This document shows positions 7,380-10,288 of a DNA stretch of 24,682 nt, piece after piece. Position 1 is the stretch's first letter, and every line of letters starts with the position of its first letter. Origin of the DNA: a virus. The stretch lies in the IMG/VR virus record IMGVR_UViG_3300031278_000123, positions 1 through 24,682 of that record; one strand, given 5' to 3'. The notes beneath the pieces were generated by a model, which did not search any database, had not been told where the DNA came from, and worked only from the letters and a program-made list of their open reading frames with translations. A program made the translations under genes and the position numbers.

Positions 7380-8117
7380 ATGCCATTACCAAAACCAAAA
7401 GATAATGAAGAGCAGTCTACATTTGTATCAAGGTGTATGGATAACGATACTATAAAAAAAGAATACCCTGACCAGAAGCAAAGACTTGCAGTTTGTTTTT
7501 CTCAATTTAGAAGAAGAAAGAAAGGTGAAGATATGAAAGATTTTATAACAATCCCAGTAGATAATAAGGTAGCGGTAGATGTGGACACTAAAGTTATTAC
7601 CATTTCTGATAGGCTGGGGATAGACGCCTTATATACTTTTAACCGGAAGAAAATTATTGAGTATTATTTTAACAAAGAAAAAGAATGGGATGAAGAAAAA
7701 GCTGTTGAATGGTATAACGAGCATAAATCTGTTGAACCACAGCCAGAAGAACAGGCAAAGAAATTTTTTAAAGTTGATAATGAGAAGCGGATAGTGTACG
7801 GCGTAGCACTTGTGCCTTATGAAGTAGATTTACAAGGGGATATCTTAACCGAGGAATCCATAGAAGAAGCGGTACATCTTTTTGCAAAGAGTTTCCAAGA
7901 TGTGGGAGCAATGCATACTAGGGTAACTGGTTTAGGTACGATGCTTGAAACTTATGTAGCTCCAGTAGATTTTGAAATGAATGGAGTAAAAGTAAAAAAG
8001 GGAAGTTGGGTTTTAGTTACTGAAGCATCTCAAAATGTCTGGGAGAAAATTAAAAATAACGAGCTTGTAGGATATTCGATTGAATATGAAGGTGAAAGAA
8101 CACCTATAGAAATTTAA
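7380..8117 (+). CDS. XkdF-type prohead serine protease
   Basis: The 245-residue protein has two parts. Residues 1-50 (PLPKPKDNEEQSTFVSRCM, ending KQRLAVCFSQFRR) form a small Cys-containing domain that often precedes or stands beside phage proteases. Residues 52-245 are the XkdF domain: RIVYGVALVPYEVDLQGDIL, then MHTRVTGL, then a GSWVL strand and NVWEKIKNNELVGYSIEYEG. The family is thought to mature the prohead by cleaving scaffold and capsid protein. The ATG follows the preceding stop without a gap. A second, in-frame ATG at 7533 has its own AAAGGTGA (7521-7528), 4-5 bases away, and would yield the protease domain alone (194 aa). Confidence 0.8.
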   Translation: MPLPKPKDNEEQSTFVSRCMDNDTIKKEYPDQKQRLAVCFSQFRRRKKGEDMKDFITIPVDNKVAVDVDTKVITISDRLGIDALYTFNRKKIIEYYFNKEKEWDEEKAVEWYNEHKSVEPQPEEQAKKFFKVDNEKRIVYGVALVPYEVDLQGDILTEESIEEAVHLFAKSFQDVGAMHTRVTGLGTMLETYVAPVDFEMNGVKVKKGSWVLVTEASQNVWEKIKNNELVGYSIEYEGERTPIEI

Positions 8118-8130
8118 AGGGGGAAGGAGT

Positions 8131-9243
8131 ATGAAAATAAATTGGCTAAAAATTACTAAATTACCAAAAGTTGATTATGTTAATAGACCTGCAATTGATA
8201 AAAGATTTATTGCGATAAAGATGATGGAATATAAAAATGTTATTCCATTTAAGAAAACTAAGGCACTTCCAGAAGCGACTACATGGGATGCTGGAGCGGA
8301 AGTCAAAAAGGCAGATGTAAAAGATTTGAAAGTAATGTGTACTTGGTATGATGAGAAGGATGCAGATAGTAAAGGTGCATATAAATTACCTCATCATAAT
8401 GCAGGTAGTGGTTATCCAGTTAATTGGAATGGCGTAAAAGCAGCAATGGGGGCTTTGATGGGTGCTCGTGGTAGTGTTATGCTGCCTGACTCTGACCGGA
8501 AAGGGGTATACAACCATTTAGCAAAGCATTATAAGCAGTTTGATAAAGAAGTCCCAGAGTTTAAAACAGCAGATGAGCTGGAAAAATCTTTTGTAGATAA
8601 AATAGGAGATAAAATTAAAAGTAAGCTTGGATTTGTCGAGACCAAGATAGGGAGAGTGTTGAGCAAAACAAATGAGACAAAGTTGCTTAATGCCGCCTCA
8701 AGTATCGTAAAGGCAGGGGAAACCATACAGGCGGTGCTTGCGAGTGTAAGCAAAAATTATAAAAAGGAGGGTAGTGATATGGACGAGAAAGAAGTGAAAG
8801 ATATAGTAGAAAAAGCTATTGACGAGAAAATGGGTACATTTAAAAAAGCTATAGAAGATAAATTAGAAGAATTGTTATCCAAGAATGAAGAGGAAGATGA
8901 AGAAAATGACGATGAAAACAAGGATGAAGATGAGGATAATGAGGATGAGAACAAGGAAGAGGAAGAAAGCGATGATGATGATTCTGAAAAAAATAAAAAG
9001 AAAAAAGTATCCAAGAAAAAATCTAAAGAGTCAAAAAGCAAAGATGAAGAATTGTTAAATAGCATAACTGATATTATTGAGAAAAAAGTTAATGAAGTAA
9101 AATCTGATGTTGATAATATTAAGAAAGAGCTTAATATAAAGCCGGAATCAGATAAGAAGAAAACTAACAAAAAAGAAGTTGATAAAGAGGAAAAAGATGA
9201 TGAAGTTAGCTATGATGGAGTATTTGGAATAAAAGGTATATAA
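8131..9243 (+). CDS. prohead accessory/scaffolding protein with acidic C-terminal half
   Basis: The 370-residue protein has three parts. Residues 1-40 open with KITKLPKVDYVNRPAI. Residues 50-145 hold a domain commonly fused to phage prohead proteases (YKLPHHNAG, MGALMGARGSVMLPDSDRKG, then VYNHLAKHYKQF). Residues 185-370 are coiled-coil-like and extremely charged, with a Glu/Asp-rich run (about 250-285) followed by Lys-rich segments. Such sequence is typical of scaffolds that organise the prohead and are then removed by the protease. It lies 13 bases after the protease gene and directly before the major capsid gene, the expected scaffold position. AAAGGGGG serves the ATG. A strong internal start at 8779 is listed separately. 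Confidence 0.72.
   Translation: MKINWLKITKLPKVDYVNRPAIDKRFIAIKMMEYKNVIPFKKTKALPEATTWDAGAEVKKADVKDLKVMCTWYDEKDADSKGAYKLPHHNAGSGYPVNWNGVKAAMGALMGARGSVMLPDSDRKGVYNHLAKHYKQFDKEVPEFKTADELEKSFVDKIGDKIKSKLGFVETKIGRVLSKTNETKLLNAASSIVKAGETIQAVLASVSKNYKKEGSDMDEKEVKDIVEKAIDEKMGTFKKAIEDKLEELLSKNEEEDEENDDENKDEDEDNEDENKEEEESDDDDSEKNKKKKVSKKKSKESKSKDEELLNSITDIIEKKVNEVKSDVDNIKKELNIKPESDKKKTNKKEVDKEEKDDEVSYDGVFGIKGI
8765..8781 (+). promoter_or_regulatory. internal ribosome binding site and in-frame start for a nested scaffold
   Basis: AGGAGG (8765-8770, within AAAAAGGAGGG) stands exactly 8 bases before ATG 8779, one of the best initiation sites in the window. The ATG is in the frame of the 8131 gene and would begin a 154-residue product, MDEKEVKDIVEKAIDEKM and onward, that is just the coiled-coil acidic scaffold. 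This resembles the nested Nu3-in-C layout of lambda. Confidence 0.7.
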
Positions 9244-9280: not shown

Positions 9281-10288
9281 ATGTTAACGAATGAACAATT
9301 ATTAGAGGAGTTGAATAAGAAGGTTTTTGGTAATAAAGATATATTTACCGATTCAGACCTGTCAAGTGCCGGACTTCTAAATGCAAGACAGCTTACCCAG
9401 TTTATTGAAGAAACTTTGGAGAGGGCTGTAATGCGTAAAGAGTGCAGGCATGATAAGGGTTCTGAAAAACAGCTTGACTTAGATAAGATAGAATTTTCAG
9501 ATTTGATAATTCAAACTCCAGCAAGTGAAGGAACTGCACATACTACTACTACAGCGCCTAGTACAAGCCAGGTTAGTATTAGCACTGTTGAGTATCTGGT
9601 AGCGGTAGATTTGGGTTGGAGTTCACTTAGAAATTCGATAGAAAAAGCTGGATTTGAAAATAGGTTAATGAAAAGGATATCAAGGAAAGCCGGTACTGAC
9701 TTAGAAGCTGTTGCCGTAAATTCTAATACCTCAACAGGTAGTGGAGTTTATGATGATAATGCTGGTTGGTTCCAGGTAGGAGCAACTGACCATGAAGTTG
9801 ACCATGCAAGTGGTGAATTTGCTTCTACAGCAGATAAGACTATTACGCTTTTTGATAATATGTTGGATGCTTTGCCTAAAAAGTATATGGATAGTACCAA
9901 TTTGAAAGCATGGAGATTTTATGTGCACGTTGATATAGAGTGGTTGTATCGTAGATGGCTAACTGCTATAGGGGCAACTCATGCAGGAGCTATGAATTAC
10001 TTAATTGATAATCCGCCAATATTTTATCAGGGAATACCTGTTATTGGAGTACCGAGATTGGCAAGAACTTCTGCAGGTACACCATCTTATTACTTGTCAA
10101 AGGCAATGCTTTGTCATCCAAAGAACCTAATTGAATATATCCAGACTGATATGCAGTTTGTTTCTGAAAATAAGCCAAGGAAACGCCAGATAGAAATAAC
10201 TGGTACAATTAATGTTGATTGGCAGATTGAAGAGACTGACGCTGTCGTGGTCGCCAAAGACATAAAACATAGTCTTGGAACGGATTAA
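9281..10288 (+). CDS. major capsid protein (HK97 fold)
   Basis: The 335-residue protein is the likely main shell subunit. It starts with a helical N-arm (about 1-60, with LNARQLTQFIEETLERAV). Core segments follow: LIIQTPASEGT, a Thr-rich loop, VSISTVEYLVAVDLGWSSL, the spine-helix region AVAVNSNT...GWF, LPKKYMDSTNLKAWRFYVH, and PIFYQGIPVIGVPRLA, which is typical of the P-domain/A-domain of HK97-fold capsids. I place the start at ATG 9281, 9 bases after AAAGGAG; the TTG at 9272 abuts that site. It follows the protease and scaffold genes, the canonical order. A 38-base gap separates it from the scaffold gene, and no terminator follows. Confidence 0.88.
   Translation: MLTNEQLLEELNKKVFGNKDIFTDSDLSSAGLLNARQLTQFIEETLERAVMRKECRHDKGSEKQLDLDKIEFSDLIIQTPASEGTAHTTTTAPSTSQVSISTVEYLVAVDLGWSSLRNSIEKAGFENRLMKRISRKAGTDLEAVAVNSNTSTGSGVYDDNAGWFQVGATDHEVDHASGEFASTADKTITLFDNMLDALPKKYMDSTNLKAWRFYVHVDIEWLYRRWLTAIGATHAGAMNYLIDNPPIFYQGIPVIGVPRLARTSAGTPSYYLSKAMLCHPKNLIEYIQTDMQFVSENKPRKRQIEITGTINVDWQIEETDAVVVAKDIKHSLGTD

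Follow-up and report, generated by a model that had tools for sequence, protein, structure and literature searches.

In the window, a virus record of 24,682 bases that is the whole stretch of DNA analysed here, the gene at 8131-9243 probably carries a nested scaffold of the lambda C/Nu3 type within the XkdF family of prohead proteases, in which the protease has been cut off, its last strand lies on the scaffold gene, two starts are used and the long form docks the protease. This reading draws on the two starts and their conservation, on the gene order, on a protease that ends before its last strand and on the occurrence of a nested start across the XkdF family, all of which are seen directly in the sequences. 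A nested scaffold resembling lambda C/Nu3 had been proposed in a sequence-only reading of this DNA; the conserved start and site support it, with two corrections, one concerning the outer N-terminus and the other the reach of the arrangement, which goes beyond this locus.

The head module has the usual layout of terminase, portal, Mu F-like protein, XkdF-type protease, the gene under study and major capsid protein. The features that concern the two starts and the adjoining genes are as follows:

7380..8117, + strand: XkdF-type (Peptidase_S78_2) prohead protease core, 245 amino acids, ending right after the GYSI motif and without the last strand
8116..8123, + strand: outer-start ribosome-binding site, AAAGGGGG, with a 7-base spacer, overlapping the protease stop codon; a strong site in 7/7 clade members
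8131..9243, + strand: outer (long) product, 370 amino acids, from the ORF call; relatives L005-L011 are full length
8763..8770, + strand: internal ribosome-binding site, AAAGGAGG, with an 8-base spacer to ATG 8779
8779..9243, + strand: inner (short) product, 154 amino acids, predicted free scaffolding protein, acidic and coiled-coil-like
9281..10288, + strand: major capsid protein (matches phrog_1623 at E 1.5e-55 over residues 5-332 of 338; annotated major capsid proteins also matched by tblastn)

As judged from the sequence, the internal start at 8779 is real. The ORF 8131-9243 is present, ATG 8779 lies in frame and leaves 154 amino acids, and AAAGGAGG stands 8 bases upstream, all as originally described. 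The pairing energy of this site with the anti-Shine-Dalgarno tail of 16S rRNA was calculated as -10.4 kcal/mol, the first rank among 233 internal in-frame start codons, and among 114 ATG codons, in 24 ORFs of the window. The outer ATG 8131 is preceded at 7 bases by AAAGGGGG, which pairs with one G-U pair at -9.5 kcal/mol. The inner site had been called far better than the outer one; since the outer start scores -9.5 against -10.4, and both are kept in 7/7 clade members, that contrast fails.

A first viral scan yielded 62 loci, with seven full-length relatives of 62-98% identity. The window and these relatives share AAGGAGG, one variable base and then TAGTGATATG (8/8), unchanged even where glycine (GGT) gives way to aspartate (GAT). 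AAGGAGG is retained with a spacer of 8 bases at two loci from a further scan (L067 and L068), and AAAGGAG with a spacer of 11 bases at a third (L069); the whole KLPHH domain, described below, is absent from these three loci, yet the inner start and site are kept in 3/3. In a codon alignment of seven non-redundant clade members (260 codon columns), a start codon with a strong site occurred in 7/7 at the inner and outer columns only, with mean energies of -10.0 and -10.8 respectively, and in 0/7 at the remaining columns. Alignment A7 omits the outer rows of L067 and L068, which were misaligned. Within-gene shuffling of synonymous codons recreated the inner site in 2.4 of the seven sequences on average and in six at most, reached 7/7 in 0 of 1000 shuffles and matched its summed energy in 0 of 1000. 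A sliding-window test of synonymous conservation on seven sequences (L005, L009, L011 and L068 omitted as near copies) gave the site the top place among 331 windows without reaching significance, since 28% of 5000 column shuffles did equally well; the site-specific shuffle test was adopted after this outcome. Conservation of the internal site, proposed earlier as the check on the nested start, was therefore found in the close set and at the distant loci, beyond what synonymous shuffles produce. The clade set and the family set described next were both drawn from similarity searches, and the sequences within each are related, so that the counts do not represent independent events.

A scan with Lactococcus and Enterococcus proteins kept 80 of 162 related loci, of which two that run off their contigs (L127 and L130) were excluded, leaving 78 with complete ORFs; removal of 54 near copies gave a set of 24 representatives at <80% identity. 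A start codon occupies a single alignment column in all 78 of these XkdF-type protease/scaffold genes from viral contigs (46 ATG, 26 GTG, 6 TTG). The column is preceded by a site of -6 or better in 76/78, the next best of 326 columns reaching 2/78. Among the 24 representatives start and site occur together in 22, whereas 500 synonymous shuffles averaged 5.05 and never exceeded 9. The residue in this column is methionine, valine or leucine, and wherever it is valine or leucine (11/11 such representatives) the codon is GTG or TTG, codons that make up only 5-41% of the valine or leucine codons of the same genes; the product of the gene-wise codon frequencies is 3.5e-9. What these genes conserve is therefore their capacity to initiate at this point rather than a particular residue. 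The downstream capsid gene and an upstream head gene, taken as controls, gave at most 2/21 and 1/22 respectively away from their own starts.

Protease and scaffold form one ORF in the methanogen viruses psiM2, psiM100 and PhiF3, in Lactococcus phage 28201 and in Enterococcus phage EG-TP1, and in all five the internal start that ranks best or ties for best, together with its ribosome-binding site, lies right before the coiled-coil part. In the psiM2-type genes of archaeal viruses, from which L179 (a frame break at the match) and L184 (partial) were left out, the best or tied-best internal site falls at the scaffold N-terminus in 11/11, seven in one column and four one codon earlier, several of the 11 being near copies. 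The nested site is weak in gp18 of RcZahn (-4.5), is outscored by another internal site in HCTV-2, and is absent from gene b of vir075 and from MFTV1, which has a different protease type. A 108-aa ORF of MFTV1 was considered as a separate scaffold gene and rejected, its sequence, judged by eye, not being scaffold-like. The arrangement is not a variant confined to this locus: many phages, and archaeal viruses too, have nested starts at the same place in their XkdF genes. The retention of the internal start across very different bacterial and archaeal viruses suggests, at the level of sequence, a common and overlooked way of head building.

The protease at 7380-8117 matched PF14550 over residues 127-240 (E 1.9e-31; 109.1 bits, above the curated cut-off of 24) and phrog_3017, head maturation protease (E 2.6e-35). 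That it is encoded by a gene of its own, as the sequence-only reading had stated, is true of 11/11 clade members, in all of which the ORF ends at or near GYSI-x-Y-x-G-x-R-x-x-I-E-[IV]. The distance to the next start varies from 13 to 704 bases and covers all three phases. The common end point and the gaps in all three phases indicate that protease and outer gene are separate. A programmed frameshift or readthrough joining the two was rejected on the same variety of phases and on the 704-base gap at one locus. Between protease and outer gene in L067 lies an ORF (501-1220) which, from its motifs as judged by eye, we take to be homing endonuclease-like.

The last strand of the protease fold, of the SYVDKAAN or SIVDRPA type, is absent from 7380-8117 and was found at the start of the next gene:

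8170..8220, + strand: VDYVNRPAIDKRFIAIK, segment like the last strand of XkdF protease, from sequence comparison (strand 260-273 of the model described below)

The outer genes of the clade open with a segment such as FEISYVNRPAIDKRFIALK, a stretch that ranks with the most conserved of the outer protein as far out as L069 (37-42% identity). A like segment, SIVDRPAVPKARYLSIK, follows the protease core on the same chain in psiM2, and in XkdF proteins of the Firmicutes type (lactococcal and enterococcal) the like segment, THVSYVDKAANKKQFFLTK, forms the N-terminus. LV6, R30Z, RcZahn, vir075 and PAK_P4 each have a short protease gene followed by a gene that opens with a like segment, the resemblance being weakest in PAK_P4.

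XkdF proteases cut before the last strand, with a like segment on the next gene, thus occur in separate groups comprising Pakpunavirus, Vibrio phages, a Methanobrevibacter virus and a Rhodobacter phage:

Cut XkdF proteases in separate groups: L094, 2405-3789; L092, 2498-4275; L084, 2131-3912; L088, 2498-3487; L093, 2441-4490

The protease ORF itself holds a second possible internal start:

7519..7535, + strand: AGAAAGG with ATG 7533, a start that would drop the Cys-containing N-terminal segment of the protease ORF

ATG 7533 is codon 52 of this ORF and follows the Cys-containing segment (CMDN...QRLAVCF). Of the non-redundant members that have the segment (the window, L007, L008, L010 and L068), 5/5 show an ATG in frame at this place, preceded by a site of -7.1 to -10.1, and in L006, which is without it, the protease ORF begins at about the point of ATG 7533.

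The two gene products of a clade member (L010) were modelled on one chain, in which the outer protein begins at residue 257; this covalent joining favours contact between them. The model has a mean pLDDT of 77 and a pTM of 0.40, and places a strand at residues 260-273, that is, outer residues 4-17. Aligned with VIA-align to the T4 gp21 protease, it matched over residues 136-276 (Z 9.7, 121 aligned, rmsd 3.1), a region that spans the gene break, as does the match of residues 139-288 to the pseudorabies virus protease pUL26N (Z 6.6); residues 139-288 also matched the Epstein-Barr virus protease (Z 4.8). A fused XkdF protein with the strand at its N-terminus (L111) matched gp21 over residues 9-150 only (Z 7.0, from a poor model of pLDDT 54), as expected of a moved strand. 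Foldseek returned no match below E 0.001 for either model, the best for the joined L010 model being E 0.04. The comparisons fit a scheme in which one strand is placed three ways in XkdF proteases, N-terminal to the core, C-terminal to it or on the following gene, and from the model the strand on the outer gene is predicted to complete the protease fold.

It is quite possible, although somewhat doubtful, that both starts work and the short form serves as scaffold while the strand of the long form does not complete the protease in trans, being instead a relic of a fused gene, such as that of psiM2, or serving in another role such as portal or capsid binding; docking rests on one model in which the genes were joined on one chain. 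Against this, the strand is well conserved down to L069, the protease ends exactly before it in 11/11, and a like cut is seen in the separate phage groups of vir075, LV6, R30Z, RcZahn and PAK_P4.

Two further parts of the long product lie between the strand and the inner start:

8233..8577, + strand: KLPHH...AKHYKQFDK domain, an optional insert to which no function is assigned; absent in L067-L069, present in L012-L066
8665..8757, + strand: helix with a GRVLSK-type linker, directly ahead of the inner start, from the alignment and the model

The outer product had been described as accessory, with a distinct domain. The domain is there, as an optional insert; the description of the product as just accessory did not survive, the N-terminus resembling the last strand of XkdF protease. 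Over model residues 291-405 the KLPHH domain has a pLDDT mostly >90, and no match of its own was found in Pfam at E 0.1. A tie between this domain and the nested start was rejected, as L067-L069 have the start and no domain, and the longer KLPHH-bearing protease ORFs of L012-L066 have the domain and no consistent internal site (L044 and L055, which are open-ended, excluded).

Many head protease ORFs on viral contigs (L012-L066) contain the KLPHH...AKHYKQFDK domain. One open frame that bears it (L052, 3098-5980; 961 amino acids) has, judged by eye, an AAA+ ATPase-like part between protease-type and scaffold-type parts, and in L056-L058 the domain appears, again by eye, joined to ClpP/S49-like peptidase sequence of a different protease family.

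The inner product coincides with the acidic part of the gene, as had been noted at the outset: 37% of its 154 residues are aspartate or glutamate, 2% are F, W, Y or C, and its net charge is -22, compared with +13 for the preceding 216 residues. It has the properties looked for in a scaffold, being acidic and coiled-coil-like with the major capsid gene directly next to it. The capsid protein shows no N-terminal scaffold extension of the delta type, the phrog_1623 match taking in residues 5-332 of 338. Helices in the scaffold part of an XkdF model were predicted with low confidence only. The inner product matched no family in Pfam, PHROGs or NCBIfam, and the two matches of the 370-aa protein to solved structures (phmmer) look like low complexity or coiled coil. 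One C-terminal peptide is conserved:

9205..9240, + strand: SYDGVFGIKGI, from alignments, a possible capsid-binding end of the scaffold

It is unlikely that the short form is made but has some other task, for example as a regulator or inhibitor of the protease, with the long form as the scaffold. Sequence cannot reveal function, and the whole C-terminal part is common to both forms. Against such a division of labour stand the acidic, aromatic-poor composition of the short form and its place directly ahead of a capsid gene without a delta-type extension; in addition, families in which the long form comprises the entire protease have the inner start at this boundary of the protein too, and there a free scaffold would be expected, as with lambda C/Nu3. 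The supposition that only the long protein is made and that Lys/Glu-rich coding (AAG GAG), together with a conserved methionine, happens to produce the internal site is very improbable: such codons can spell AAGGAG, the region is rich in them and shuffles recreate the site often in five XkdF members (0.65-0.87; L139, L150, L153, L165 and L172), but synonymous shuffles never exceeded 9/24 against the 22/24 observed or reached 7/7 in the clade, methionine is replaced by valine or leucine yet always as GTG or TTG, and the neighbouring genes show nothing comparable.

We infer that both proteins are made, the short one as the bulk scaffold and the long one to dock and carry the protease. Translation from 8131 would give a long protein that runs from the final strand of the XkdF protease fold through the KLPHH insert and the linker helix to the scaffold, and translation from 8779 the scaffold alone. 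The short form and the major capsid protein, product of the following gene, would together shape the prohead. If lambda C/Nu3 is a guide, the long form would be in the minority; it would act as a linker, entering the scaffold core through the shared C-terminal part and supplying the last strand by which the separately encoded protease core (7380-8117) may be held. The protease would thereby be carried into the prohead, where it would later digest the scaffold. More tentatively, and with rather less than even confidence, we propose a prohead protease in two parts that is completed only on co-assembly with the scaffold, the short scaffold setting the number of protease sites per prohead, and nested starts that are general, and undescribed, in the XkdF family of bacterial and archaeal viruses.

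Shaw and Murialdo (1980) reportedly found that the lambda scaffold Nu3 arises from an in-frame internal start inside the protease gene C. The gene at 8131-9243 is alike in its in-frame internal start, which has its own ribosome-binding site and is conserved, and in a scaffold part common to the long form. Its long form does not contain the whole protease; the core is separate in 11/11 clade members, and the locus therefore works like C/Nu3 but is a variant of it rather than a strict member. In phage Mu the protease gene for gpI likewise holds a nested scaffold, gpZ; its protease is of a different family and, unlike the one here, is not known to be split. Herpesvirus UL26 and UL26.5 yield a long protease-scaffold and a short scaffold with a common C-terminus, the short form coming from its own transcript. 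Herpesvirus protease and linker form one chain, unlike those of the window; the joined model tentatively resembles the assemblin fold (pseudorabies pUL26N, Z 6.6). The fused XkdF genes of Lactococcus phage 28201, Enterococcus phage EG-TP1 and psiM2 share both the protease family and the position of the internal start. They differ in keeping protease and scaffold in one gene, with the strand either N-terminal (Firmicutes type) or placed after the core and ahead of the scaffold (psiM2 type). According to an excerpt of one source, a single gene encodes lambda gpC, a peptidase of the S49 family (PMC10695390). The peptidase here is, by contrast, of the XkdF type and separately encoded, the scaffold gene carrying no more of it than the last strand. 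In HK97 and T5, as a passage of another source has it, the delta domain is a coiled-coil scaffold removed in maturation (PMC10275583). That scaffold is fused to the capsid protein; the one here is separate, and the capsid protein is without such an extension.

Nested scaffold genes as such are already known; what appears new is a probable one in the XkdF family with its protease split. A literature search, mostly of journals open without subscription, turned up no nested scaffold described for XkdF genes. Annotators, too, seem to have missed it so far: in LV6 the second gene is labelled a 'transport and binding protein', and in the part of the source that covers Vibrio phage R21Y, ORF 57, by number after the ORF named XkdF, is annotated as an ion exchanger (PMC10671443). 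Sequence drift makes scaffold genes difficult to recognise, and for many phages and archaeal viruses no scaffold gene is annotated. The conserved internal start points straight to the scaffold in XkdF-type viruses, including those of the psiM2 type in methanogens, in which only the protease is annotated. For inner starts that are GTG, replacement by another valine codon, silent in the long form, would remove the short protein and leave the long form intact. If the sharing of the strand is true, it shows how a virus keeps its protease off until it is seated in the scaffold core.
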